From Lysobacter sp. KIS68-7 (GTDB taxonomy: Bacteria; Pseudomonadota; Gammaproteobacteria; Xanthomonadales; Xanthomonadaceae), in the NCBI RefSeq assembly GCF_021284745.1, contig NZ_CP089925.1, positions 2,603,001 through 2,667,000 on the forward strand: a stretch of DNA of 64,000 bases. Direction: 5' to 3'. The notes below the pieces were generated by a model. That model had not been told where the DNA came from. It did no database searches and saw only the letters and a list, made by a program, of their open reading frames with translations. Made by a program: the position numbers and the translations under genes. Every line of letters starts with the position of its first letter. Within the stretch, counting starts at the first letter, position 1. Shown in pieces: positions 3,417 through 59,915 of the stretch.

Positions 3417-5574
3417 AAGGCATCAACGACAAGCGCTCTGCCGCCAACGTTTTTGCCAGCCCCTCCCGCTGCGCCCGGTACATCCGATGCAACTCCGCAT
3501 TCCGCGCAACGATGCGCGGATCGTCCGCGATCCCCAACCAACGTTGCCGCGCTTCGCGACCCACTTGTTCGGCGTACGGCGCGGCGATCTCGGCGCGGAC
3601 CAGCGCTTCGCGATCCGAACCCAGGAACGCGAAATACCGTGCATTCCATGGCTTGCGCATCCACGTCTCGCCTCTGAACGCAGTCACGGTGGCCAGCAAC
3701 TCGGCGCGTCGCGCGTTCCAGTCGCCCGGATCGGCCAGGCACGGCGCCAGCGTCGAGAGTCGCCGGATCTGGGCGTTGACCGAAACGCCATTGGGGACCA
3801 GTGCACGAAAGCCGGCCACGTCGTAGTGCGCAGGCAACACGCCCGCCCGCACGAGCGCCTGGCGCATGTCCTCCGTCCGCCCGAGTTCCACCGATGCCAG
3901 GCAACCAGCACCCACCGCGTCGGTCCAATCCCAGCGACGTTCTTCGGCGGCGCGCGGGATCAGCGCGATGGCACCGTCATACGCCGCCTGCGCGTGACCG
4001 CGCGAGTGATCGAGCACCACGCGCGTGCTCTCCGCGAACAGGTTGCCGGGCGCGAGGCGCTGCGACAGCGCGAGCCACGCATCGGCGGCCGCGGGCTCCC
4101 CCAGGTCCTCCAGCGACGGCGCCATGTCCGCGGCGATCTCGTGGTCGTCCGGGTCGATGCGATGGGCGATCAGCGACCAATGGACGAACCCGGCGGGATC
4201 GTTCCGGAATGCCGCGACGTTCCCCATGGACGTCGCGGCATTCGGATTCCGGGGTTGCAGTTCCCAGGCGCGCTGCGCGCTGGCCTGCGCCTCGTCGAGC
4301 CGCCCCATCCACGACAGTGCACTGGTCTTGAAGAAAAGCAGCGAACCGTTGAGCGGATCCAGTCGCACCACCGACTCGATCTCCGCGAGCGCCGCTTCGA
4401 ACTCCATGTCGTACATGTGCAGCCGCGCCTGGGACATGCGCAGCCCCATGTCGTTGGGCGCACGCGCGATCGCCTGCGCCAACAGGCGTCGCGCGAGGTC
4501 GCCGTCGCCCGCTTCTTCCGCCTGCACGGCCCGGAATCCGAGCAACTGGCCGTTGTCCGGATCGATGCGTGCGATGCGATCGAGCCAGGGCCGCGCACGC
4601 AATGCGGCGGTGCGCCGCGAAATCTTGCCGGTCTGCGCCATCGACATCCACACGCGCACCAGGCCGACCATCGCGTCCAGGTAATTCGGATCGCGCGCGA
4701 GTGCCTGTTGCATCGCGCGCTCGGCGATGTCGAGCGAACCGAAACTGTCGATCGCGATCTGTTGCAGGCCGTGGACGTAGGCATCGTAGGCGGCCACGTC
4801 ATGCGTGCCGCCCTGCACGATCGCGGCGCGCTCGCCCGGCAGCACCTCGCCCACCAGCGCCCTGGCGACCTCCGAGGCGATCTCGTCCTGGATCGCAAAC
4901 AGATCGGACATGCGGCGGTCGTAACTGCGCGACCACACTTCCGAGCCATCATCGGTGCGCACCAATTGCGCGGTGATGCGGACCATCTCGCCGGAACGTT
5001 GCACGCTGCCTTCCACCACGGTCGCCACGCCGAGCAATCCGCCGATGTGGCGCACGTCATCCTGCTTGCCGCGGAAGGAAAACGAGGAAGTGCGCGCAGC
5101 GACCTTGAGCTTCGGCACCTGCGCGAGCTTGTGCAGCAGGGTCTCGCTCAACCCATCGGAGAAGTATTCGTCGCCGGGGCGCGAGGACAGATTGAGGAAC
5201 GGCAGCACGGCCGTGGACGCGTCGCCAAGCCGCGCATGCGATCCGCGCAGGCCGACGTCGCCGGACAGCACATGCACGAACCAGCCAAGGGTCGCGGCGA
5301 CCAGCAGGGCCGCAATGCCGAACACGCGCTTGTTTCCTTTCGGCGCACGCTCGAGCCGCAAGCCACCGGGCGTCAGTTCCATCAGCCACGCGAGCACCAC
5401 CGCCACCGGCAGTCCCAGCAACGCGAGCAAGGTGATCAGGCGCGGCACCCAGTCGGGCAAGCCCAGCTGCGGCGCCACCGTCGCGCCGACCTGGATGACC
5501 AGCCAGGCGACGACCAGATAGCCCGCCGCGACCTTGAAGACCTTGCGACGCCTCAGCTCCGCGAACAGCGACAT
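3415..5574 (-). CDS. TolB/FlgO-like TPR membrane protein
   Basis: The protein has 719 residues. A short cytoplasmic start (MSLFAELRRRKVFKVAAGY) leads into two membrane segments (about 16-34 and 43-65) and a third near 85-105. A domain resembling the TolB/FlgO amino-terminal fold follows (STAVLPFLNLSSRPGDEYFSDGLSETLLHKL, described here by its edges at about 119-150, through to EVWSRSYDRR near 220). The remainder is tetratricopeptide-type helical repeats. Related proteins often carry an N-terminal winged helix or adenylate cyclase domain; neither is present here. It is probably a periplasmic or envelope scaffold. It lies entirely between the two 940-bp repeats on the opposite strand, and its TAG stop (3415-3417) straddles the copy 1 boundary. 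Confidence 0.8.
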   Translation of the reverse strand: MSLFAELRRRKVFKVAAGYLVVAWLVIQVGATVAPQLGLPDWVPRLITLLALLGLPVAVVLAWLMELTPGGLRLERAPKGNKRVFGIAALLVAATLGWFVHVLSGDVGLRGSHARLGDASTAVLPFLNLSSRPGDEYFSDGLSETLLHKLAQVPKLKVAARTSSFSFRGKQDDVRHIGGLLGVATVVEGSVQRSGEMVRITAQLVRTDDGSEVWSRSYDRRMSDLFAIQDEIASEVARALVGEVLPGERAAIVQGGTHDVAAYDAYVHGLQQIAIDSFGSLDIAERAMQQALARDPNYLDAMVGLVRVWMSMAQTGKISRRTAALRARPWLDRIARIDPDNGQLLGFRAVQAEEAGDGDLARRLLAQAIARAPNDMGLRMSQARLHMYDMEFEAALAEIESVVRLDPLNGSLLFFKTSALSWMGRLDEAQASAQRAWELQPRNPNAATSMGNVAAFRNDPAGFVHWSLIAHRIDPDDHEIAADMAPSLEDLGEPAAADAWLALSQRLAPGNLFAESTRVVLDHSRGHAQAAYDGAIALIPRAAEERRWDWTDAVGAGCLASVELGRTEDMRQALVRAGVLPAHYDVAGFRALVPNGVSVNAQIRRLSTLAPCLADPGDWNARRAELLATVTAFRGETWMRKPWNARYFAFLGSDREALVRAEIAAPYAEQVGREARQRWLGIADDPRIVARNAELHRMYRAQREGLAKTLAAERLSLMP

Positions 5575-8835: not shown

Positions 8836-11800
8836 ATGAACGCTCGACGTAGTTTGGTGTTGTTCGCGGTCGGCGTGGCGTCGGGCACGTTGCTCGCCGC
8901 CGCGGGGGACATCATCGTTTCGCCGACGGCGGGCATCGCGCCGGAGTTCGCCTTCAAGGCGGACGTGCCCATGCAATCGCTGAAGGACGTGCCGACCTGG
9001 CCCGAGATCGAGCAGATGCTCGACAACCCGTATGCCGTCGGCGCCTGCCCTGCGGATGGCTCCGGGCAAGCGTCGCTCGGCAACGGACAGGGCTTCGCTG
9101 CACTGTGCTCGACGGCGGCGCGCCGGCGCTCCTTCCTGCCGCACGGCTGTACTTACGATCCCACGACGGGTCTGCCGCCCTGCAACGATGCATTGCTTCC
9201 GCGCTTTGCGGTGCATCCGCTCAACTACAACCCGCTGACCGGCGAGCAATTGCGCGTGCTCGATCCTGCTTTCCCGGGCGTGGCGAACTTCGCGAACCGC
9301 GGGGCGATTTCCTCCGGTGCCTCGCGCATTGCCGCAGGCGCGATGCCTGCCATCGACTACAACAGTCCCCTCGCCTCCGACGGCTCTGATCCGGGCGAAC
9401 CCGCCGGTTACGCGGTGGCGGCGGTTTGCGGCAACGACCCGCGCCTGGGCTGGGTGGAAACGCGCCCCGGCTGCGCAAACAACATCGGCCGCCTGTTCGA
9501 TCCGACGTTCCGCGCCGGCACGACGCAACCGCGCGGTGTAGTGTTGCGCCTGGCCAAGCCTTCGATCGGACAGGCCTATTTGTTCAATTCGCCCGGCCAG
9601 ATCGGCGCCGCGCCGCAAAACCTGCGCCCGTCCATCCCGAGCGATTACATCCGCAACCGCGCCTTTGCCCAGGTGCTGGGCAAGGCGCTGTTCTGGGACA
9701 TGCAGGTGGGCAGCGACGGCGTGCAGGCCTGCGCGACCTGCCACTTCTCCGCCGGCGCCGATACGCGCCTGCGCAACCAGATCAACCCGGGCATCCTCGC
9801 CGGCGACACCGAACTCGGCATCTTCCGCAACCGCCATCCGGATACGCCGCCGAACACCACCGACGATGTCGACGTCAACCGCGACCTCGCCGCGAGCGAC
9901 TTCCCCACGCACCGGCTGACCAACAACAGCCTCCCCGGCGAACCGCTGCTCAATCCGGGCAACGTCACGCGCGACACCAACGATGTCGTGTCTTCGATGG
10001 GCGTGCGCCTGCGCCGTTTCATCGACATCCCGACGCCGGGCACCACTGCGTTTGGCGGCGCGAACAACGGCGTGCGCGCGCTGCTACCGGACCAGGGCGC
10101 CTTCATCCTCGACGAGATCCCGATCTATCGCGGGCGCCGTCGCGTCGAACCGCGCAATGCGCCCTCGATGATCAACGCAAGCCTGAACTACGACAATTTC
10201 TGGGACGGCCGCGCGCGCCACGACTTCAACGGCGGCAGCGTGTTCGGCGCCTCCGATCCGCAGTTCCATGTCTTCGTCGACAACGGCGGTGCACTCGTTC
10301 GCACGCGCCAGCTCATCCGCTTCTCGAGCATCGCGTCCTTGATGGTCGGCCCGGCGATGTCGGATTTCGAAATGTCCTTCCGCGGGCGCAACTGGGACAA
10401 GCTCGGCAAGAAACTGCTGCAGGGCGACGGCAGCGCCGCGCGTCCGAACGTGGTGCCGCTCGCCAACCAGTTGGTGTCGACCAGCGACAGCATCCTCGGG
10501 CCCTGGTCCAACCAGGGCGGCTCGCAGTGCGTCGCGCTCGGTCGCCCCACCGCAGTCGGCCGCCCCGGCCTGTGCCTGAGTTACCGCGAGCTCGTGCAGA
10601 ACGCCTACTTCCCCACGCTGTGGCAGAACGGCGCGCAACACCTGACCGGCTTCGCGGCACCGTGCACGAGCGCGGTGGACGGCGTGCTGACACCCACGGG
10701 ATGCGATCCGTTCGACGGCTTCGTCGAAGCAGTCACCAATGGCGCAGCGGTGCCGACCGACCGCAACCAGTTCACGCAGATGGAAGCGAACTTCAGCTTG
10801 TTCGCGGGGCTGGGCATGCAGGCCTATGCCGACCTGCTGATTTCCGACGACACGCCGTTCGATCGCTTCCTCGACGCGAACCCGCAGGCCTTCCGCGCCT
10901 TCAGCGGCGCCGCGATGCCGCTGTGCACGACCACCGGCAACCGCCAACCGTGCCTGACGCAGGTCGAAGGCTTCAACCGGCCGCTGCCCCCCGACGGCGT
11001 GCCCGATCGCCTGCTCGGCCTGGACATGTTCTTCGGCACCAACCTGAGCAACCGCAACACGAGCTTCCGCTCTGCGCGCTGCGGCAATTGCCATTCCGGC
11101 GGTACGCTCACCAACAATGCCCTCGCGCTGGCCTCGCGCATCATCGAGCCCGACTTCGAACGCGAGTTCAGCACGCCGGGCACCAAGCTGGATCGCAAGC
11201 CGCTGGGCGAACCGCGCGTGGTGACGGGCTTCATGCTCGAAGCGATGGTCAACAGCAACGCGCAGGGCGCGGTACAGCGCCAGTTGATCTCGCCGCGGAT
11301 CCTCGCCACGGGCGGGCTGTCGACGCCGCAAGGCGCGGCCTTCTTCGACATGGGGATGTACAACATCTCCGTGCGGCCGTTCGACGAAGACCTGCTGCGC
11401 GGCGGCAACGACGCGTTCGGTTGGCCCTTGTCGCTCGCCGCGCTGGGGCTGAAGAACCTCGGTGGCGTCGCCATGGTGCCTGGCACGCGCCTGCCCACCT
11501 TCAATCCGAACTTCAGTGCCGCGTGCTCACCCCGTTGCACGACCGGCGGGCTGTTCGCACCCACGGCGCAGGACCAGCGCATCAATCCGGGCGCCAGTGC
11601 GCGCATCCTGCGTCCGCTGCTGCCGCCCTCGCTCGCGCCGTGGATCCCACCCTTGACGCTGGGTCGCGCACATCCCGAACTCGACGAAGTCGAAGGCGGC
11701 TTCAACACGCAAACTTCGGTGCCGGTGATGGACAGCCTGCTCGACCAGACCGGCCCGTTCAATCCGAACGCGCGGCTCAACCAACAGTTCAACGCAACGC

Positions 11801-43060: not shown

Positions 43061-43112
43061 TTGCCGGGGTGCTGCGTTCGCCTGATGGTGCAGCCAAACC
43101 GGGCGAACGGGG

Positions 43113-48132: not shown

Positions 48133-48196
48133 CCCAATCTGGGGCCCAAGCTCATCAATCGGGTCTCCCGGGCCTGCAAATGGCTCGCGACGCACT

Positions 48197-48448
48197 CGAA
48201 CGCGTCGCGGACGTCTCCGAGTGGGTCCGGAACCCAATCGAACGCGTCGCCGACGTCTCCGAGTGCGTCCGGAACCCAATCGAACGGGTCGCCGACGCAA
48301 TCGAGTGCGTCCGGAACCCAATCGAACGCTTCGCCAACCCACTTGAGTGCGTCCGGAACCCAATCGAACGCTTCGCCAACGCACTTGAGTGCGTCCGGAA
48401 CCCAATCGAACGCGTCGCCGACGTCTCCGAGTGCGTCCGAAACGCACT
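48197..48448. repeat. 42-bp minisatellite, six copies
   Basis: Six full 42-bp units begin at 48197, 48239, 48281, 48323, 48365 and 48407, with partial units on both sides. Units begin CGAACGCGTCGCCGACGTCT and end TGCGTCCGGAACCCAAT. They differ mainly in positions 7-27. Because 42 is 14 codons and no stop is present, all six frames are open. The plus frame gives VRNPIERVADVSEC-type helical 14-mers, the minus frame DALGDVGDAFDWVP-type 14-mers. There are no unique spacers, so it is not a CRISPR. Confidence 0.9.
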
Positions 48449-48612
48449 CGAACGCGCTCGCGACCCGTTTTTGGCGCACTCGCCGGAGCTGCGGACATTG
48501 CCAGTCCGCTTCAGGACGTATCCGCCTGACGTCGTGCGCTCCCGTCCAGTAGGGATGCGCGAACGCAACGCAGAACTCCGGAGCCACACCGACTAACGCA
48601 GCGCACGCCCCG

Positions 48613-52964: not shown

Positions 52965-54197
52965 ATGCCGCTTTCCGACACTGCGATTCAAGCGTTGAAG
53001 TGCCGCGCGGGGGCGCGTTTCACGAAGTACCACGATCGAGACGGCTTGTTCGTCTATGTGTTCCCGTCGGGTACGAAGTCGTTCGTCCTTCGCTACCGAA
53101 TCCACGGCGCCGAACGCTCGTTCTCCCTGGGCCGATACCCGACGGTGACGCTTAAGAGGGCCCGTGAACGCGCCACCGCGATCCGTGGGCAAATCGCAGA
53201 CGGTGTCGACCCGGTGCAGGACAAGCGTCGCCGGATGGCCGCTGCGGCAGCGCACGACGCGGCGCGCTTCACTGCACTCGCCGACGACTGGCGCAAGCGC
53301 CAAACGTGGACGTCCGCAGTGCGGGCGCAATACGACCGCCTCTTCGAGCGAGACATCCTCCCCGCTCTCGGTCGCCTGCCGGTGGCTGACGTCGCAATCG
53401 ACGACGTGCAATGCCTCGTCGATAGCGTCGCTGAACGGGGCAAGGTCGTCGCAGGCCACGTGCTGCTGTTGGTCCGCGGGGTTCTCAAGCACGCCGTCGC
53501 AAAGAAGCTGGCCCCCTACAACGTAGCCAGAGAGGTCCAAGCGCCGAAGCGCGAGCGCGGGGCGAAGAAGTCGTACCGACATCTTGAAGCAACGGCCGAC
53601 GTTCGCATGCTCATCGAGCGCATCGAGGGCTACAACGGAAACCTGGAAACGAAGATCGCGTTGATGCTGCTCGTGCTGACCTTCGTACGGCCGAGCGAGT
53701 TGCGCGAAGCCACATGGCCGGAATTCGACCTGGATGCAATCGACGCCGATGGACAGGCCGCGCCGTCCTGGAGCATCCCCGGCGAACGAATGAAGCGCGG
53801 CCGACCCCATGTCGTGCCGTTGAGTACGCAGGCCGTTCTGTTGCTTCGCAACTTGAAGGAATTGACGGGCCATGCCCGCCACTTGTTCCCGAACGCCCGT
53901 GACTCTGACAAGCCGATGGCGCGGAATACGTTCATCCGCGCGCTGCGGGACTACATGCGCATCCCGACGACCGCTCACGGCGTTCGTCATTTGGCGAGTA
54001 CGACGCTCAATTCGCAGGGTTGGAACCGGGACTGGATCGAGCTTCAGCTCGCGCATTGGAACGAAGGCGTGCGCGGGGCCTACAACAAGGCGCAATGGCT
54101 TCCCGATCGACGCCGCATGATGCAGGCATACGCCGACTGGCTCGACCGGGTTCGCACCATCGAGCCGAACGTTATCCCGCTTCGACGAGCGAGCTGA
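52965..54197 (+). CDS. P4-type tyrosine integrase
   Basis: The protein has 410 residues. The N-terminal arm-binding DUF4102 domain is FTKYHDRDGLFVYVFPSG (about 19-36). The core-binding domain spans about 100-190. The catalytic set is R242 (VRPSELR), H338-G-V-R341 (TAHGVRHLAS), H364 (AHWN) and nucleophile Y373 (GAYNKA). It is therefore complete. It integrates and excises the P4-like element whose other genes follow on the same strand. No tRNA gene lies at its side; the left junction instead seems to lie in an amidohydrolase gene start. Confidence 0.95.
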   Translation: MPLSDTAIQALKCRAGARFTKYHDRDGLFVYVFPSGTKSFVLRYRIHGAERSFSLGRYPTVTLKRARERATAIRGQIADGVDPVQDKRRRMAAAAAHDAARFTALADDWRKRQTWTSAVRAQYDRLFERDILPALGRLPVADVAIDDVQCLVDSVAERGKVVAGHVLLLVRGVLKHAVAKKLAPYNVAREVQAPKRERGAKKSYRHLEATADVRMLIERIEGYNGNLETKIALMLLVLTFVRPSELREATWPEFDLDAIDADGQAAPSWSIPGERMKRGRPHVVPLSTQAVLLLRNLKELTGHARHLFPNARDSDKPMARNTFIRALRDYMRIPTTAHGVRHLASTTLNSQGWNRDWIELQLAHWNEGVRGAYNKAQWLPDRRRMMQAYADWLDRVRTIEPNVIPLRRAS

Positions 54198-54201
54198 CGT
54201 T

Positions 54202-54255
54202 ACACCCGACATTCTTGCGCATTTTTTTTGGCGCTCCCTACAGCGTGTCGGGTGT
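54202..54255 (+). promoter_or_regulatory. Long hairpin after the integrase gene
   Basis: ACACCCGACA (54202-54211) and TGTCGGGTGT (54246-54255) are perfect 10-bp arms around a 34-nt loop that includes eight T residues. It could act as terminator, operator or replication-linked structure. Confidence 0.5.
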
Positions 54256-54294
54256 CGCGAGGACGTGTTTCGCGTAACTCCTTGATTCTGTTCG

Positions 54295-54354
54295 CCGACA
54301 TTCTGTCGGGTTCCCGATTCGAGATGCGTGTGTTCTGTTTCGCACGTCGAAACA
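54295..54354 (+). promoter_or_regulatory. Cluster of palindromes before the AlpA-like gene
   Basis: CCGACA-TTC-TGTCGG at 54295-54309 repeats the CCGACATTC word of the hairpin at 54202. TGTTTCG-CACGT-CGAAACA at 54336-54354 is a 19-bp perfect inverted repeat, flanked by GTGTG and CACAC, 14 bp before the AlpA-like ATG. Both are good operator candidates. Confidence 0.55.
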
Positions 54355-54368
54355 CACACAGGTACGTC

Positions 54369-54659
54369 ATGCAATCGCTTCCCGAATACGGCTTCGTCCG
54401 CCTCTCCCAGATCATCGGCCGCTGCGAGGTCACGCAGGAGAAGGCCGATGCAAATCGCGCTTCCGGCAAGGGCCGCCAACGCGCATGCAGCGGCATCGCG
54501 CCCATCATCCCGCTCTCGGCGACAGCGTGGTGGCGCGGCGTGAAGAGCGGTCGCTTCCCGAAGCCGATCAAACAGGGGAAGTCGACGCTCTGGAACGTCG
54601 CGGAGATCCGAGACCTTGTCGAACGCCTCGCCTCCAACGACGCTGAGGCGCACCGCTAA
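54369..54659 (+). CDS. AlpA-like excisionase/regulator
   Basis: The protein has 96 residues from ATG at 54369. GFVRLSQIIG, then a longer charged insert (about 22-45, with RASGKGRQRA) and the helix-turn-helix part LSATAWWRGVKSGRFPKPIK make up a typical AlpA fold (phage P4 regulator that controls integrase and excision). The insert between first helix and HTH is longer than usual. Its stop overlaps the ATG of the primase gene (TAATG). Confidence 0.85.
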   Translation: MQSLPEYGFVRLSQIIGRCEVTQEKADANRASGKGRQRACSGIAPIIPLSATAWWRGVKSGRFPKPIKQGKSTLWNVAEIRDLVERLASNDAEAHR

Positions 54660-56896
54660 TGTCGGCCGAGAGTTCGAACCCCCTGCCGGATGCCCCGGCC
54701 GCAGCGAAGATGGCGCTTCTTGGGACGCCGATGGATGTGGCGCTCTACTACGCGAGCCTCGGATTCCGCGTACACCCGCTGCGTGTCACCGGCGACGAAA
54801 AGAACATGCGCGCGCCCCGACTGCCGGAGTGGCAGAAGCATGCAACGACTGATGTGCAACAGGTGGCTTCGTGGTGGACCGAAACGCCGGGCGCAGGTAT
54901 CGGCATTGCCACTGGTTGCGTGCACGGTCTCGTCGTCCTCGACGTCGACATGAAGAACGGGAAGGACGGAGAAGCTGCCCTCTTCGACCTGGTCGCGCAG
55001 CACGACCACCTGCCTAACACGCTGACGGTCTGCACGCCTTCCGGTGGCCGCCACCTGTACTTCGTCGGCGGAATGGGCTTGCCCAACAGTGCGAGCAGCG
55101 TCGGCGTCGGCTTGGACGTTCGCGGCGACAACGGCTACGTGATCGCCCCCTCGCCCGCCGTCATCGGTCGCGACTACGCCTGGTCGAATTACCATACGCT
55201 TGCGACGGCCCCCGAGTGGCTGATCGAAATCGCGCGCCGTCCGAAGTCGAAACGTGATCAAGCCCGCACCCCGAGCGAGGGCATCCTGCCCTTGGGCAGC
55301 CGCAACGACGCACTCTTTCGCGAGGGTTCGCGCCTTCGCCGCGTCGGCGCTGGCGTCCACGAAATTGAGATGCATCTCAAGTCGGTGCCCGTCGAGGGGG
55401 AGATGGATGACGGCGAGATCGAGCGGATCGCGTCGAACGCCGCCCGTTATGCGCCGGTCTCGTGGGCCGGAGCAAACGACCCGTGCACGGACCTCGCGAA
55501 TGCGTATCGTCTGACCAACCTCTACGGCGATCGCCTCTTGTACGTCGAGGGTATTGGTTGGCACGTGTGGAAGGAGGGGCGCGGACCCTGGCGGCACGAT
55601 GATCTCGGGGCACGCAACATCGCCCATGGGCTCGGCGCAGTCATCGCGAGCGAAGCCGCGGACATGGCGCATTGGGTGGCAAGCGCGTCGGACGATGTCA
55701 CGCGCGGCGCTCGCCAGCGACAGATGGACAACCTCTTCCGCTGGGCATCCCGAACTGAATCCGCGCAGGGCATCGAGAACGCCATGAAGATGGCGCAGGC
55801 GAAACTTGCGTGCAAAGCGGAGGAACTGGACGCCAATGCGATGCTGCTCGGCTTGCCGTCCGGAGTGCTGGAACTCGACACGATGGTGCATCGCGAACAT
55901 CGCCAAGCCGACCGGCTCACGCGCGTAACGGGCACCGATTACGATCCCGGGGCCCTCGCGCCGACCTGGCGTCAGTTCATCGCCGAGACCATGTGCGGCA
56001 ACGACGCGCTTGCGGACTACCTGCAACGACTCTTCGGCTACGCGCTGTCGGGTCGCCAAGGCGAGCACCTGCTGCCGATCCTGCACGGCAACGGTGCAAA
56101 CGGAAAGAGCACCCTCCTCGGGGCACTGCAACTGATGATGGGCGAATACGCGAGCACCGCCGCGCCCGGCCTGTTGATCGCGAAGAACGGCAACGAACAT
56201 CCGACCGGCCTGGCCGACCTGCAAGGCCGACGCTTGATCGTGGTGAGCGAAACGGGCGAAGGCGGTCGCCTGAACGAAGAGCAGGTCAAAGCATTGACCG
56301 GCGGCGACCGCATCGCAGCCCGCCGAATGCGCCAGGACTTCTATCACTTCGACCCGACGCACCTGTTCGTGATGCAGACCAACTACAAGCCCCACGTCGC
56401 AGGCACGGACAACGGCATCTGGCGCCGCCTCCGGCTGATTCCGTTCGACGCGCAGATCCCGCCGGAACGCCGCGATGCCGCTCTGCCGGAAAAGCTAAAG
56501 GCGGAACTGCCCGGCATCCTCGCGTGGGCGGTCGAGGGGTGGCGAAAGTATCGCGACGGCGGCTTCGAAACCCCGGAAGTCGTAACCGCCGCAACGAACG
56601 AGTACCGCAGTTCGTCCGACCAAATCGGCGCTTTCATCGACGAATGCTGCGAAACTGCCGACTGGCTGACCGCCACGTCGCACGACCTCTATCGCGCCTA
56701 CAGCGAGTGGTGCTCGGACGTCGGAGAGTACGCGCGCTCGAACCGCGAATTCGGCGTGCGTCTGGGCGAGCGGGGATTCAAGCAATCGAAGGGCACTGGC
56801 GGCGTGCGCCGTTGGCGCGGGCTATCCGTCGGTGCAGCGAATGGGGTGAACGGGACAAAGTCGGCAAGCTCCCGTTACTACCCTGCCCGGCTGTAG
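54659..56896 (+). CDS. Prim-pol/P4-family primase-helicase
   Basis: The protein has 745 residues. The N-terminal primase-polymerase domain (about 22-200) has D95-V-D97 (VVLDVDMKNG) and the later SGGRHLYF. A linker leads to a D5-N/P4-type helicase with Walker A G477-N-G-A-N-G-K483-S-T, Walker B-like RRLIVVSETGEG and the arginine block NGIWRRLRLIPF. It replicates the excised element and coincides in layout with P4-like satellite proteins. It overlaps the AlpA-like gene by one base. Confidence 0.93.
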   Translation: MSAESSNPLPDAPAAAKMALLGTPMDVALYYASLGFRVHPLRVTGDEKNMRAPRLPEWQKHATTDVQQVASWWTETPGAGIGIATGCVHGLVVLDVDMKNGKDGEAALFDLVAQHDHLPNTLTVCTPSGGRHLYFVGGMGLPNSASSVGVGLDVRGDNGYVIAPSPAVIGRDYAWSNYHTLATAPEWLIEIARRPKSKRDQARTPSEGILPLGSRNDALFREGSRLRRVGAGVHEIEMHLKSVPVEGEMDDGEIERIASNAARYAPVSWAGANDPCTDLANAYRLTNLYGDRLLYVEGIGWHVWKEGRGPWRHDDLGARNIAHGLGAVIASEAADMAHWVASASDDVTRGARQRQMDNLFRWASRTESAQGIENAMKMAQAKLACKAEELDANAMLLGLPSGVLELDTMVHREHRQADRLTRVTGTDYDPGALAPTWRQFIAETMCGNDALADYLQRLFGYALSGRQGEHLLPILHGNGANGKSTLLGALQLMMGEYASTAAPGLLIAKNGNEHPTGLADLQGRRLIVVSETGEGGRLNEEQVKALTGGDRIAARRMRQDFYHFDPTHLFVMQTNYKPHVAGTDNGIWRRLRLIPFDAQIPPERRDAALPEKLKAELPGILAWAVEGWRKYRDGGFETPEVVTAATNEYRSSSDQIGAFIDECCETADWLTATSHDLYRAYSEWCSDVGEYARSNREFGVRLGERGFKQSKGTGGVRRWRGLSVGAANGVNGTKSASSRYYPARL

Positions 56897-56950
56897 TCGG
56901 CGGTGTTGGCACGAACCGCCGCGCCGGCTACGGGCGGTGGGATGCACACG

Positions 56951-56990
56951 CCCCCGATGTCCGTATTAGATTGTCGGCGGACATCGGGGG
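56951..56990 (+). promoter_or_regulatory. 13-bp-arm palindrome over the start of the cargo gene
   Basis: CCCCCGATGTCCG (56951-56963), 14 bases, CGGACATCGGGGG (56978-56990). Arms are perfect. The loop holds TATTAGATTG, a -10-like word, and the right arm contains the GGGGGA ribosome site six bases before the ATG at 56997. It could be an operator, or an RNA hairpin that hides the ribosome site. Confidence 0.7.
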
Positions 56991-56996
56991 AACGAC

Positions 56997-58760
56997 ATGG
57001 ATCAAGACTGGTTCGAAATGCGGGCGGAGCGTCGGCGCCCCCACTCCGGCCAAACGTGGATTCCGTTACGTGCGTTGCTCAGCCGCGCGCAGGGCGACGT
57101 GGGCCAGCTTGGATACCTCGAAGACTTCAGCGGGGCACTGTCGATCGCCGTGCCCTCGAACTTTCGAGCCGCCGCAGAAGAGTTGGAATGGGGCGATTCG
57201 GGCCTCGCCAATTCGCACGGCGCGTACGCTTCCCCCGACGGCAGCTACAAGACCGTGGACACCTTTCAATTCGACGACGGCGTCGATGCAGGCGTCCACC
57301 TTGTGCTCGCCCAGCGCAACCCGATTGGCGACGACGTCTGGCATCTGAACCAAGACCTCGTGCTGGCGCTCGGGCTGATCGAAGATGGCGACGCTTGGGT
57401 GCAGCCGGACGAGAACTTTGCGGTGGTCGCCAAGCGGGTTCGACGCGCCGACGCAAGTGTCGCCGCGATACTCATTCGAACTGACTTCTTGTGCGATTAC
57501 CTGTGCGCTCGTGGTCTCGCATTGCGTCTATTGACGTATCGCGATCGTGTGTCGATCGAGGCCAGCGCCGGCCACATTACATGGCCGGGGGGGCAACAAA
57601 ACGACGCGCTCGCAGATGGGCGATTCACAGGCCGCGTGGACCGCATTCATCCTGGAGGCGACCGAGAGGGCGCCACTGTGGCTGTCTTCCATTCATGGCG
57701 CACCGACGTCGACGTTGAGGCCGATGTCCCAATTATGGGACCGGAGACAGATGACGGCACGGATCACACGCACCGGCGTTTTACGCGAGCAGGCCCCGTT
57801 CTACACCGGATTTCGGGTGAGGTGTGGCGTTGTGAGTGGATCGAGCCGGCGGCCCGGAGCCCGTGCGTGCGCGGCGATCACGTGCCTTCGTCGACCTCGT
57901 TTATTGTGAACGCGGCCGGAGACCGTCGAGGCGCCGACGAACTCAATGACGAAGACATCGGCCTATGGCTCTGGTTCGACGCTGCCATCGTGCGAGACCT
58001 GCTCGCTCTACGCGCGGGTCGACTGGAGTGGTACACGCATGACACGGGCGGCCTCGAAGGCGAGCCCGGTTACACGATCCATTTCGGCATCAACGAGGCT
58101 GGCCTCATCAACGTGTACGCGCGCGACGTCGCGCGTCTGTCCGAGTGGCATCGCAGGTTTTGGGCAGGTCGAAATCTTTACCCCGACGGCCGCCTCAGCG
58201 CGGAGCTGGCGATGTCGCATATCGAGGCGCGAGTCGCCGACACCACTGCTCCCGAGCAACGCATCGCGGATTTGCTGACCGGCATTGACGCCGCCGCTCG
58301 CGAGTCGTGGGGGTTCCCGATTTTTCGGCAGCACGGGATCGAAAATCAGCTGCTCGCCTCGCTCCATCGTTTCCGTGGGGTAGACCGGAGCTCGCTGCTC
58401 GAACTGGCCAAGGACGTTGCGCGCCTTACGGCCGATCGCATCGACGCTGAATCACTGCAACGATTCGCGCCTCCCACCGCCCAACTCAAGGGGACTGGCT
58501 CGCTCAAGTCGCTGGAACGCGCGCTCGCCGTTCACGAAGGTGCGGCACGCGCCCGATCCATGATGGGGCCGCTGGCCGGCATCTACGATCTTCGTGTGGG
58601 TGCGGCGCACTTGCCGGGTTCCGAAATCGAAGCGGCATTCGCTCTGGCAGGAATCGACCCCAACGCTTCAAGTTACAACCAATCGCTGCAGCTTTTGACC
58701 GCCCTGGCGCAGAGCTTGGAGTCCATTGAGGCCTCTATTCGAGCCAGTGGCCGAACGTAG
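56997..58760 (+). CDS. Cargo protein of unknown function with HEPN-like C-terminal motif
   Basis: The protein has 587 residues and its family is not recognised. The N-terminal two thirds are mixed alpha/beta with paired similar segments: residues 83-105 (YKTVDTFQFDDG, VDAGVHLVLAQRN) and about 280-330 (SFIVNAAGDRRGADELNDED). The region after 410 is helical. Near the end, IYDLR533-VGAAH538-LPGSE gives R-x4-H followed by helices (YNQSLQLLTALAQSLESIEAS), the layout of HEPN RNases. It is the only gene after the primase in the P4-like element, a place where such satellites often carry anti-phage genes. Its start is covered by a palindrome, as expected for a gene kept tightly silent. Role as defence or toxin is inference. 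Confidence 0.75.
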   Translation: MDQDWFEMRAERRRPHSGQTWIPLRALLSRAQGDVGQLGYLEDFSGALSIAVPSNFRAAAEELEWGDSGLANSHGAYASPDGSYKTVDTFQFDDGVDAGVHLVLAQRNPIGDDVWHLNQDLVLALGLIEDGDAWVQPDENFAVVAKRVRRADASVAAILIRTDFLCDYLCARGLALRLLTYRDRVSIEASAGHITWPGGQQNDALADGRFTGRVDRIHPGGDREGATVAVFHSWRTDVDVEADVPIMGPETDDGTDHTHRRFTRAGPVLHRISGEVWRCEWIEPAARSPCVRGDHVPSSTSFIVNAAGDRRGADELNDEDIGLWLWFDAAIVRDLLALRAGRLEWYTHDTGGLEGEPGYTIHFGINEAGLINVYARDVARLSEWHRRFWAGRNLYPDGRLSAELAMSHIEARVADTTAPEQRIADLLTGIDAAARESWGFPIFRQHGIENQLLASLHRFRGVDRSSLLELAKDVARLTADRIDAESLQRFAPPTAQLKGTGSLKSLERALAVHEGAARARSMMGPLAGIYDLRVGAAHLPGSEIEAAFALAGIDPNASSYNQSLQLLTALAQSLESIEASIRASGRT

Positions 58761-58781
58761 GTTAGCGACACGCCCCCCGAG

Positions 58782-58810
58782 TGACCGCTTTCGACCCAAA
58801 GCGGACATTC
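58782..58810 (+). repeat. Dispersed palindrome, copy 8
   Basis: TGACCGCTTTCGACCCAAAG followed by CGGACATTC, 21 bp after the cargo gene stop and the first copy on the right side of the element. Confidence 0.85.
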
Positions 58811-58856
58811 GACCGGAAGCAGGCGTGTGTTCTGCCTTGGAACAGCCGGTGGGCTG

Positions 58857-59915
58857 CTAAGGCCGACCCATAGTCCAACTGTCTACATCGACAATCGCAT
58901 CGACAAAATCCTGCGGCGCTTCTTGCGGCAAGTTGTGCCCGATGCCGCCCGTGATCAGGCGGTGTTCGTACTTGCCGGTGAATCGTTTGGCGTAGCTCTC
59001 GGGCTTCGGATGCGGCGCGCCATTCGCGTCGCCTTCGAGCGTGATCGTGGGAACGGTGATAGCCGGTCCCTCGGCCAACGTCTTTTCCGCGGCGTCGTAC
59101 TTCGCCTCGCCTTCGGCCAGGCCGAGCCGCCAGCGATAGTTGTGCACCACGACGGCGACGTGATCCGGGTTCTCGAAGGCCGCCGCGCTGCGATCGAACG
59201 TCGCGTCGTCGAACGCCCACTTCGGCGAGGCCAGCTTCCAGATCAGCTTCGCGAAATCGTGGGTGTACTTGGCGTAGCCGGCGCGGCCCCGGTCGGTCGC
59301 GAAGTAGAACTGGTACCACCACTGCAGCTCCGCTTCGGGCGGAAGAGGCGTTTGCGCCGCCTGCTGGCTGCCGATCAGATAGCCGCTGACGGACACAAGC
59401 CCCTTCACGCGCTCCGGATGCAGCGCCGCCACAATGCCGGCCGTACGCGCGCCCCAATCGAAGCCGCCGAAGATCGCCTGCCGGATGCCGAGCGCGTCCA
59501 TGAAGGCCACTGCATCCTCCGCCAACGCGGCAGGTTGCCCGTTGCGCGGCGTGGCCGGCGAGAGGAAGCGCGTGGCGCCGTACCCGCGCAGGTACGGAAC
59601 CAGCACCCGGTACCCTCGAGTGGCCAGCGGCGGCGCCACATCGACATAGCTATGGATGTCGTAAGGCCATCCATGCAGCAGCACGACCACAGGGCCGTCG
59701 GCAGGTCCTGCCTCGGCGTACGCGACCTCGAGCACGCCCGCCTTCACCTGCTTGAGCGGGGCCAACGACCCGGATGAGGTTGCCGCCGCCGGCGCCTTCG
59801 CCTGCGCGCGGGGAGCGGCCACGGCGGTTCCGAACACCGGCAATGCCATGCTCATCGCCACGCCAGCGAGCAGGCGGCGACGGTGCTCATCCACGCGCTT
59901 CGTTTGCGCTTTCAT
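58857..59915 (-). CDS. Exported alpha/beta hydrolase (epoxide hydrolase/dehalogenase-like)
   Basis: The protein has 352 residues. The ATG at 59915 follows GAGGAG. Its start has HRRRLLAGVAMSMALP, a twin-arginine-like lead, so Tat export is possible. The oxyanion block is HGWP (81-84). The nucleophile is D153 in GGFDWGA, an Asp as in epoxide hydrolases and haloalkane dehalogenases. The late His is in GIGHNLPQE. The cap region lies about 185-270. Substrate unknown. Confidence 0.85.
   Translation of the reverse strand: MKAQTKRVDEHRRRLLAGVAMSMALPVFGTAVAAPRAQAKAPAAATSSGSLAPLKQVKAGVLEVAYAEAGPADGPVVVLLHGWPYDIHSYVDVAPPLATRGYRVLVPYLRGYGATRFLSPATPRNGQPAALAEDAVAFMDALGIRQAIFGGFDWGARTAGIVAALHPERVKGLVSVSGYLIGSQQAAQTPLPPEAELQWWYQFYFATDRGRAGYAKYTHDFAKLIWKLASPKWAFDDATFDRSAAAFENPDHVAVVVHNYRWRLGLAEGEAKYDAAEKTLAEGPAITVPTITLEGDANGAPHPKPESYAKRFTGKYEHRLITGGIGHNLPQEAPQDFVDAIVDVDSWTMGRP

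Follow-up and report, generated by a model that had tools for sequence, protein, structure and literature searches.

One question raised by this locus is whether the only gene that follows the primase gene of a small integrated element encodes a candidate anti-phage protein, and whether the palindrome located immediately before this gene serves to lock its expression, as an earlier note on the same DNA had proposed. The window (the whole 64-kb stretch of DNA that was analysed) was therefore examined at the level of the gene, its element, its relatives in other genomes and the predicted structure of its product.

The cargo gene, its element and the palindrome before it

The candidate gene is the ORF spanning positions 56997-58760 of the + strand, which begins with an ATG and encodes a protein of 587 amino acids. 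Both the ORF call and the translation were confirmed, and the start codon is supported by the homologues, most of which start within a few residues of the ATG of the window protein. The gene lies after the primase gene (54659-56896) and the following gene (58857-59915) is on the opposite strand, which agrees with the description of the 587-residue protein as the only gene after the primase. Only four evident genes are present between positions 52965 and 58760, all of them on the + strand. The first one encodes a tyrosine integrase of 410 amino acids of the P4/PRK09692 type (52965-54197), with matches to Arm-DNA-bind_3, Phage_int_M, Phage_integrase and phrog_1, and to NF007246 below its cut-off. 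A probable AlpA-like regulator or excisionase (54369-54659) is encoded between the integrase and primase genes; its match to a PHROG excisionase is weak (E 0.044) and its start is not certain, an in-frame ATG having been taken inside the ORF 54228-54659. The third gene encodes a primase-polymerase/D5-type helicase of the P4 family (Prim-Pol, D5_N and DUF5906, TIGR01613 over the cut-off, and phrog_1156), and the fourth one, delimited by the ORF and by the homologue alignment, is the cargo gene, a candidate for single-protein defence.

The sequence matches thus place a P4-type integrase and a P4-family primase in the element. No matches to the psu, sid or delta families were found among its genes in Pfam, NCBIfam and PHROGs (PADLOC was applied to the cargo protein only), no tRNA was found in the 64-kb window, and the longest word common to the tested left and right edges, in the search for an att direct repeat, had 8 bases. 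An empty integration site was not found in the genus, where the flanks of the element were not found together either. The earlier designation as a P4-like element hence stands for the integrase and the primase, but not for psu/sid/delta, an att repeat or a tRNA, and because the P4-type integrase and primase come without packaging-control genes, "integrase-primase element" appears to be a safer name than P4-like satellite.

The gene order (integrase, AlpA-like gene, P4-family primase and one cargo gene) is like that of P4-like satellites, in which, according to the part of PMC9122126 consulted, the E. coli hotspot for defence genes is the interval between psu and int. In the window element, by contrast, the cargo is located 3' of the primase and psu, sid and delta are missing. 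Primase relatives were present in 28 of 297 genomes of the family, the own genome included (E 1e-60). Four of these loci were fetched, one of which (G149, 46% identity) runs on to a terminase large subunit gene; the cargo gene was absent from all four, and for this reason they do not reveal a hotspot 3' of this primase.

The palindrome, CCCCCGATGTCCG-N14-CGGACATCGGGGG, is found at positions 56951-56990 and ends 6 nt 5' of the ATG. Its 13-bp arms (left arm, 56951-56963; right arm, 56978-56990) are perfect (13/13), and the right arm spans a GGGGG run that resembles a ribosome site. Arms of at least 13 bp were not obtained in five Markov-1 random sequences of 64 kb, where the longest arm was 12 and occurred once; elsewhere the window contains one palindrome that is longer (arms of 14, positions 4207-4243) and further ones with arms of 11-12. 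The 40-nt RNA hairpin has a predicted energy of -27.9 kcal/mol (z -5.75). The earlier note had it covering a -10-like word and the ribosome site: the perfect arms and the covered GGGGG run were confirmed, whereas the word is merely TATTAG in the loop of the palindrome and no sigma-70-type promoter site was found in a scan of positions 56700-58900.

A dedicated lock on the cargo gene, either an operator or a hairpin that blocks translation, would fit these perfect arms, the stability of the hairpin and its place over the ribosome-site-like run just before the ATG. However, in none of 32 relatives, the one with 78% identity included, was a palindrome with arms of at least 8 located within 50 nt of the start codon; shorter palindromes upstream of these relatives (arms of 8-10) end at least 56 nt before the start. 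Furthermore, the core ATGTCCG-N14-CGGACAT has the exact arms and spacing of a dispersed REP-like repeat, present at 24 places of the genome within one mismatch (the cargo-gene palindrome counted) versus 1 for a control pattern, and another copy of the repeat, with 2 mismatches to the arms, lies just 3' of the cargo gene (58781-58808). Therefore, the lock is not supported and we consider it unlikely. Since its inner and outer parts are unlike the usual repeat, the palindrome may be a derived copy of it. Judging from the sequences compared, the system does not include it as a conserved element, and it could still influence the expression of this one gene.

The dispersed REP-like palindrome, ATGTCCGCTTTCGRCC...AAAGCGGACAT, is frequent in the genome and was located in the window at positions 43112, 46237, 48106, 58781 and 62219. 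A tandem array is also present in the window (48196-48461), with 6.3 copies of a 42-bp unit that is open in several frames on both strands.

Distribution and neighbourhoods of the family

The cargo protein had no matches in Pfam, PADLOC and NCBIfam, a single insignificant match in PHROG (E 0.37) and only chance-level matches among PDB sequences (best E 0.75), which bears out the earlier impression that it belongs to no recognised family. PADLOC also gave no family for 21 aligned members and two distant members. Some members gave weak matches to named families, which were dismissed as due to chance: RecX_HTH1 (E 0.0079) in two of them, NNH7 (E 0.013) and DUF4031 (E 0.019) each in a single one, and others that were weaker still.

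The relatives have a sporadic distribution that takes in Proteobacteria, Fusobacteria, Cyanobacteria, Actinobacteria and haloarchaea, the host names being the labels given by the search tools. They were found in 9 of 395 genomes of the family, 5 of 369 of the class and 7 of 398 of the phylum, counts that include the own genome in each case and come from overlapping sets (the class and phylum lists share G595 and G656, the latter a marginal match, E 8.9e-4). Within the genus, the search covered 4 other genomes and found the gene in none. Among plasmid records, 17 of 72,556 contained relatives, 12 of the 17 over at least 80% of the query. No relative was present in 50,697 phage records; viral contigs yielded none with the single-protein query and 14 with the family profile. 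Distant relatives of 526-580 amino acids were found in Pseudomonas, Rhodococcus and haloarchaea, and the relative from Streptomyces (276 amino acids) corresponds to the C-terminal part.

A search with one genome per species returned two loci, from Luteimonas and Xanthomonas, with 71% identity, and the two 71% matches of the family set appear to be these same loci. The two copies (L001 and L002) are closely similar (dS 0.14) and yet lie in different neighbourhoods, which suggests a recent transfer between them. Pairwise comparison of four close homologues gave a dN lower than dS in each of the six pairs (dS being near saturation in five of them); the family is under purifying selection. It was not found under six member accessions, nor under the topics HEPN, hotspot, Mu-like, GMT and Avs, in the literature searched, outside which most subscription papers fall, nor in the HEPN passages of PMC12839542. 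The sequence comparisons covered Pfam, NCBIfam, PADLOC, PHROGs and PDB, and the family may already exist under another name among newer systems (e.g. the DS and GAPS series).

The neighbourhoods of several relatives contain known defence genes. The relative with 78% identity adjoins a complete QatA-QatB-QatC-QatD operon and one with 71% identity adjoins E1-E2, JAB and two PycTIR genes, both recognised by PADLOC. Another one is near a CBASS cyclase and a SAVED-HNH effector, and one is inserted in a type I restriction-modification operon, in the order hsdR, one hypothetical gene, the relative and, directly after it, hsdM. Further relatives lie near a type IV restriction enzyme, near an HmaC/DUF499 gene and directly 3' of gmtY/VPA1269/gmtX. 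PADLOC matches were obtained for 17 of 18 neighbours (8/8 and 9/10) at 7 loci that were chosen by eye and without a random baseline; some of these matches are weak (the OLD-like gene of L049) or concern candidate classes only (PDC-S15 in L015). Many other loci, read by eye, lack a recognised defence neighbour.

Phage settings were also seen. In two closely similar Mu-like contigs, whose phage proteins were identified partly in one contig and partly in the other, the relative is flanked by the late transcription activator and the endolysin; in other contigs one relative is beside phage tail genes and one follows an integrase. A survey of the homologues for location on satellites, suggested in the earlier note, hence placed them on plasmids, on phage contigs and at integrase-linked loci, but at none of the four fetched loci of primase relatives.

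Three other features of these loci were recorded. DUF4238 proteins are encoded near four relatives (L018, 3868-4749; L049, 9992-11101; L074, 5876-6889; L077, 5763-6773), the one in L049 being recognised by eye and the rest annotated. In L046 an ORF of 199 amino acids on the - strand (9812-10411) shares 4 bases with the start of the 78% relative, in the manner of an operon partner, and it has no counterpart before the window gene. In L050 (10959-15747) the relative is near apparent TnsB, TniB and TniQ genes, identified by eye, which suggests that it is Tn7-like cargo.

Invariant residues and the predicted C-terminal domain

Conservation was analysed in 43 distinct rows, i.e. the window protein and 42 relatives, which form 19 clusters at 60% identity. 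The broken homologues of three genomes (G350, split in two; G1085, with one TGA; G1008, with one TAG), the 276-residue L077 and the distant L025 and L072 were left out, and the records L047 and L048 were taken as the same as L002 and L001, so that those two relatives were counted once. Only four positions were invariant, F327, N366, R533 and H538, and a set of 22 highly divergent rows had just three invariant positions, N366, R533 and H538. The last two residues (R533, 58593-58595; H538, 58608-58610) are five residues apart within IYDLRVGAAHLPG and form the predicted catalytic motif R533-x4-H538 (58593-58610, + strand). R and H are separated by 4 residues in 38 rows and by 5 in the remaining 5, and the motif is retained in distant branches as LRNHLKGH and LRSSGAAH. 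Because R533 and H538 are invariant in 43/43 rows with a spacing of 4 or 5, the Rx4H motif is not due to chance, as judged from this alignment.

Three regions can be distinguished in the protein. The beta-rich N-terminal region (residues ~1-320; 56997-57956), a putative sensor, was delimited by the strands of the full-length model, and an alpha/beta module in the middle (residues ~320-400; 57954-58196), which includes F327 and N366, by the conservation in the alignment. Within this module D377, W389, N393 and P396 are near-invariant, D377 being invariant across the 19 cluster representatives. The C-terminal region (residues 412-587; 58230-58757) is predicted to be a helical, HEPN-like domain. 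The full-length model, built with 17 rows, was mediocre (mean pLDDT 71.1, pTM 0.50) and showed the beta-rich first half, the alpha/beta stretch and the helical end; the model of residues 412-587, built with 18 rows, was good (pLDDT 87.5, pTM 0.86). The structure prediction proposed in the earlier note thus agrees with a helical C-terminal end. In the C-terminal model the helix 105-124 holds R122 (equivalent to R533), H127 (equivalent to H538) is in the next loop and a long final helix starts at 130. The block 121-130, which contains both residues, has a mean pLDDT of 71, and the confidence is lowest at the motif.

One important point is whether this domain belongs to the HEPN superfamily. As described in the portion of PMC3710099 consulted, HEPN domains have an Rx4-6H motif at the end of helix 3 or the start of the loop to helix 4, "typically" a polar residue (mostly N, D or H) directly after the R, and a conserved acidic residue in helix 2, typically as Ex3[KR]. 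The Rx4-6H motif is present in 43/43 rows, and in the model it straddles the boundary between one helix and the loop that follows (block pLDDT 71). An acidic residue occupies position 480 in 19/19 cluster representatives (D480, 58434-58436, + strand, in the helix 464-481 of the full-length model); the window protein lacks the Ex3[KR] arrangement. The residue after R533 is V534, and this position is N or H in 5 of the 43 rows and polar of any kind in 13.

No HEPN family was matched in Pfam, NCBIfam, PADLOC or PDB sequences by the members and profiles tested. PF05168 was also searched for in the own genome and was not found, a result that bears more on other genes than on the cargo gene. Homology with ApeA was rejected. 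In the profile-profile comparison with HEPN that the earlier note had advised, hhalign against 8 ApeA rows gave a probability of 0.3%, no better than the control with the reversed ApeA alignment, and the N-terminal and middle parts behaved likewise. Foldseek comparison of the C-terminal model with PDB gave 392 rows at E 10 or better; there was no HEPN entry in the best 50 of them, which were mostly helical bundles (best E 0.13, none below E 0.1). Nothing was obtained at E 0.001 or better with the full model (PDB and BFVD) or with the C-terminal model (PDB). The top PDB match of the full model was Avs3 (8dgc), with two chains at E 0.02-0.03 and a probability of 0.98-0.99 (202 columns in the better of the two), the sole high-probability match in the best 50 rows; this fold match of a model was kept as a lead only. 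Judged from the models, the C-terminal domain resembles HEPN in motif and topology, and its membership in the superfamily is not proven, since no HEPN entry appeared in the best 50 of the 392 Foldseek rows and the ApeA comparison equalled its reversed control. The likeness to HEPN RNases put forward earlier is hence sustained by the invariance of the motif and its helix-end position, but not by profile or Foldseek searches.

Proposed function and comparison with known systems

Because the would-be catalytic pair has been kept in distant microbes and some relatives lie beside defence genes, the family looks like an RNA-cutting defence protein. We consider it somewhat probable that the cargo protein is a self-contained abortive-infection protein, directed against phages (or other mobile elements) and with an HEPN-type RNase at its C-terminus. 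The beta-rich N-terminal region and the middle module would probably recognise an infection signal, and would probably keep the C-terminal domain inactive before the trigger. Upon this trigger two C-terminal domains would pair, R533 and H538 of the paired domains forming a metal-independent RNase site of the HEPN type, and the cutting of RNA would stop growth. The cargo would be the only accessory gene of the integrase-primase element, just as its relatives are carried by plasmids and phages. A wider proposal, which we put forward tentatively, is that of a family of one-protein immune receptors that extends across domains (Bacteria and haloarchaea). Here the HEPN-type RNase would be under the control of the beta-rich sensor and of a new middle module (invariant F327 and N366, near-invariant D377 and W389), and the gene would move alone among integrase-primase elements, Mu-like and other phages, plasmids and defence islands.

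The protein might instead act in defence with an R-H pair that is structural or binds a ligand, the main activity residing in the middle module (F327, N366, D377 and W389) or the protein being devoted purely to recognition. F327 and N366 are as invariant as R533 and H538 in the 43 rows and all 19 representatives have D377, no HEPN match was obtained by profile or, in the best 50 of 392 rows, by fold, and the only high-probability match of the full model in its best 50 rows (E 0.02-0.03) is Avs3, a STAND protein. Against this, it would be a specific coincidence for the pair to match HEPN both in its spacing and in its position within a helical C-terminal domain, and we regard such a non-catalytic pair as rather unlikely.

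The location of many relatives on plasmids, phage contigs and integrase-linked loci, some of them within a few kilobases of toxin-antitoxin genes, would also suit a protein that serves the element or plasmid itself, as a stability toxin or in exclusion or regulation, and not in phage defence. However, no partner or antitoxin common to most of the contexts was recognised by eye (DUF4238 recurs in four), and relatives adjoin several different known defence operons, one of them lying between hsdR and hsdM, which makes this role distinctly improbable. A role outside conflict, as ordinary cargo of the chromosome or of metabolism, might be allowed by the lack of a named family; it is very improbable in view of the absence of the gene from 4/4 other genomes of the genus and its presence in only 9/395 of the family (own included), the mobile and defence settings, and the close similarity (dS 0.14) of copies from two genera.

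If the reading as an abortive-infection RNase is true, this is a widespread single-gene defence family unnamed in PADLOC v2, Pfam and NCBIfam, with a defined residue pair and a putative sensor half. Found as it is on phage contigs, on plasmids, on an integrase-primase element and in archaea, the family would be well suited to studies of the infection signal of a one-protein RNase effector, and the invariant middle module points to a second activity.

ApeA has a defence role as a single protein. According to the part of PMC3710099 consulted, it combines a beta-rich ApeA-NTD1 with a C-terminal HEPN domain, so that both proteins have about 300 beta-rich residues followed by a helical C-terminal domain with Rx4H; relatives of ApeA, like those of the cargo family, are also found on plasmids. 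ApeA differs in its HEPN_Apea domain (PF18739), a Pfam match that the cargo protein does not have, and the 8 ApeA rows have 422-496 amino acids and the motif R-[NH]-x3-H. Avs3, a STAND protein that senses terminase (PDB 8dgc), has the weak local fold match to the cargo protein described above (202 columns, probability 0.99, E 0.02), but its chain has 2028 amino acids and no sequence match between them was found. Four HEPN systems are among the 31 validated in the DefensePredictor study, according to the sections of PMC13092281 consulted. One of these, DS-11, consists, as proposed for the cargo protein, of a single HEPN protein that has its own regulatory domain; by its description in that source, it differs from the cargo protein in having CBS domains. 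Tha, a HEPN system of Staphylococcus prophages, is also a single protein on mobile DNA with Rx4H at its C-terminus, as described in the part of PMC11087260 consulted; in a comparison by this description, Tha-1 is unlike the cargo protein in its size (301 amino acids) and in the polar N after the R. It is triggered by a tail protein of the incoming phage (PMC11087260, same part) and, by analogy, this trigger is a possible model for sensing by the cargo protein.
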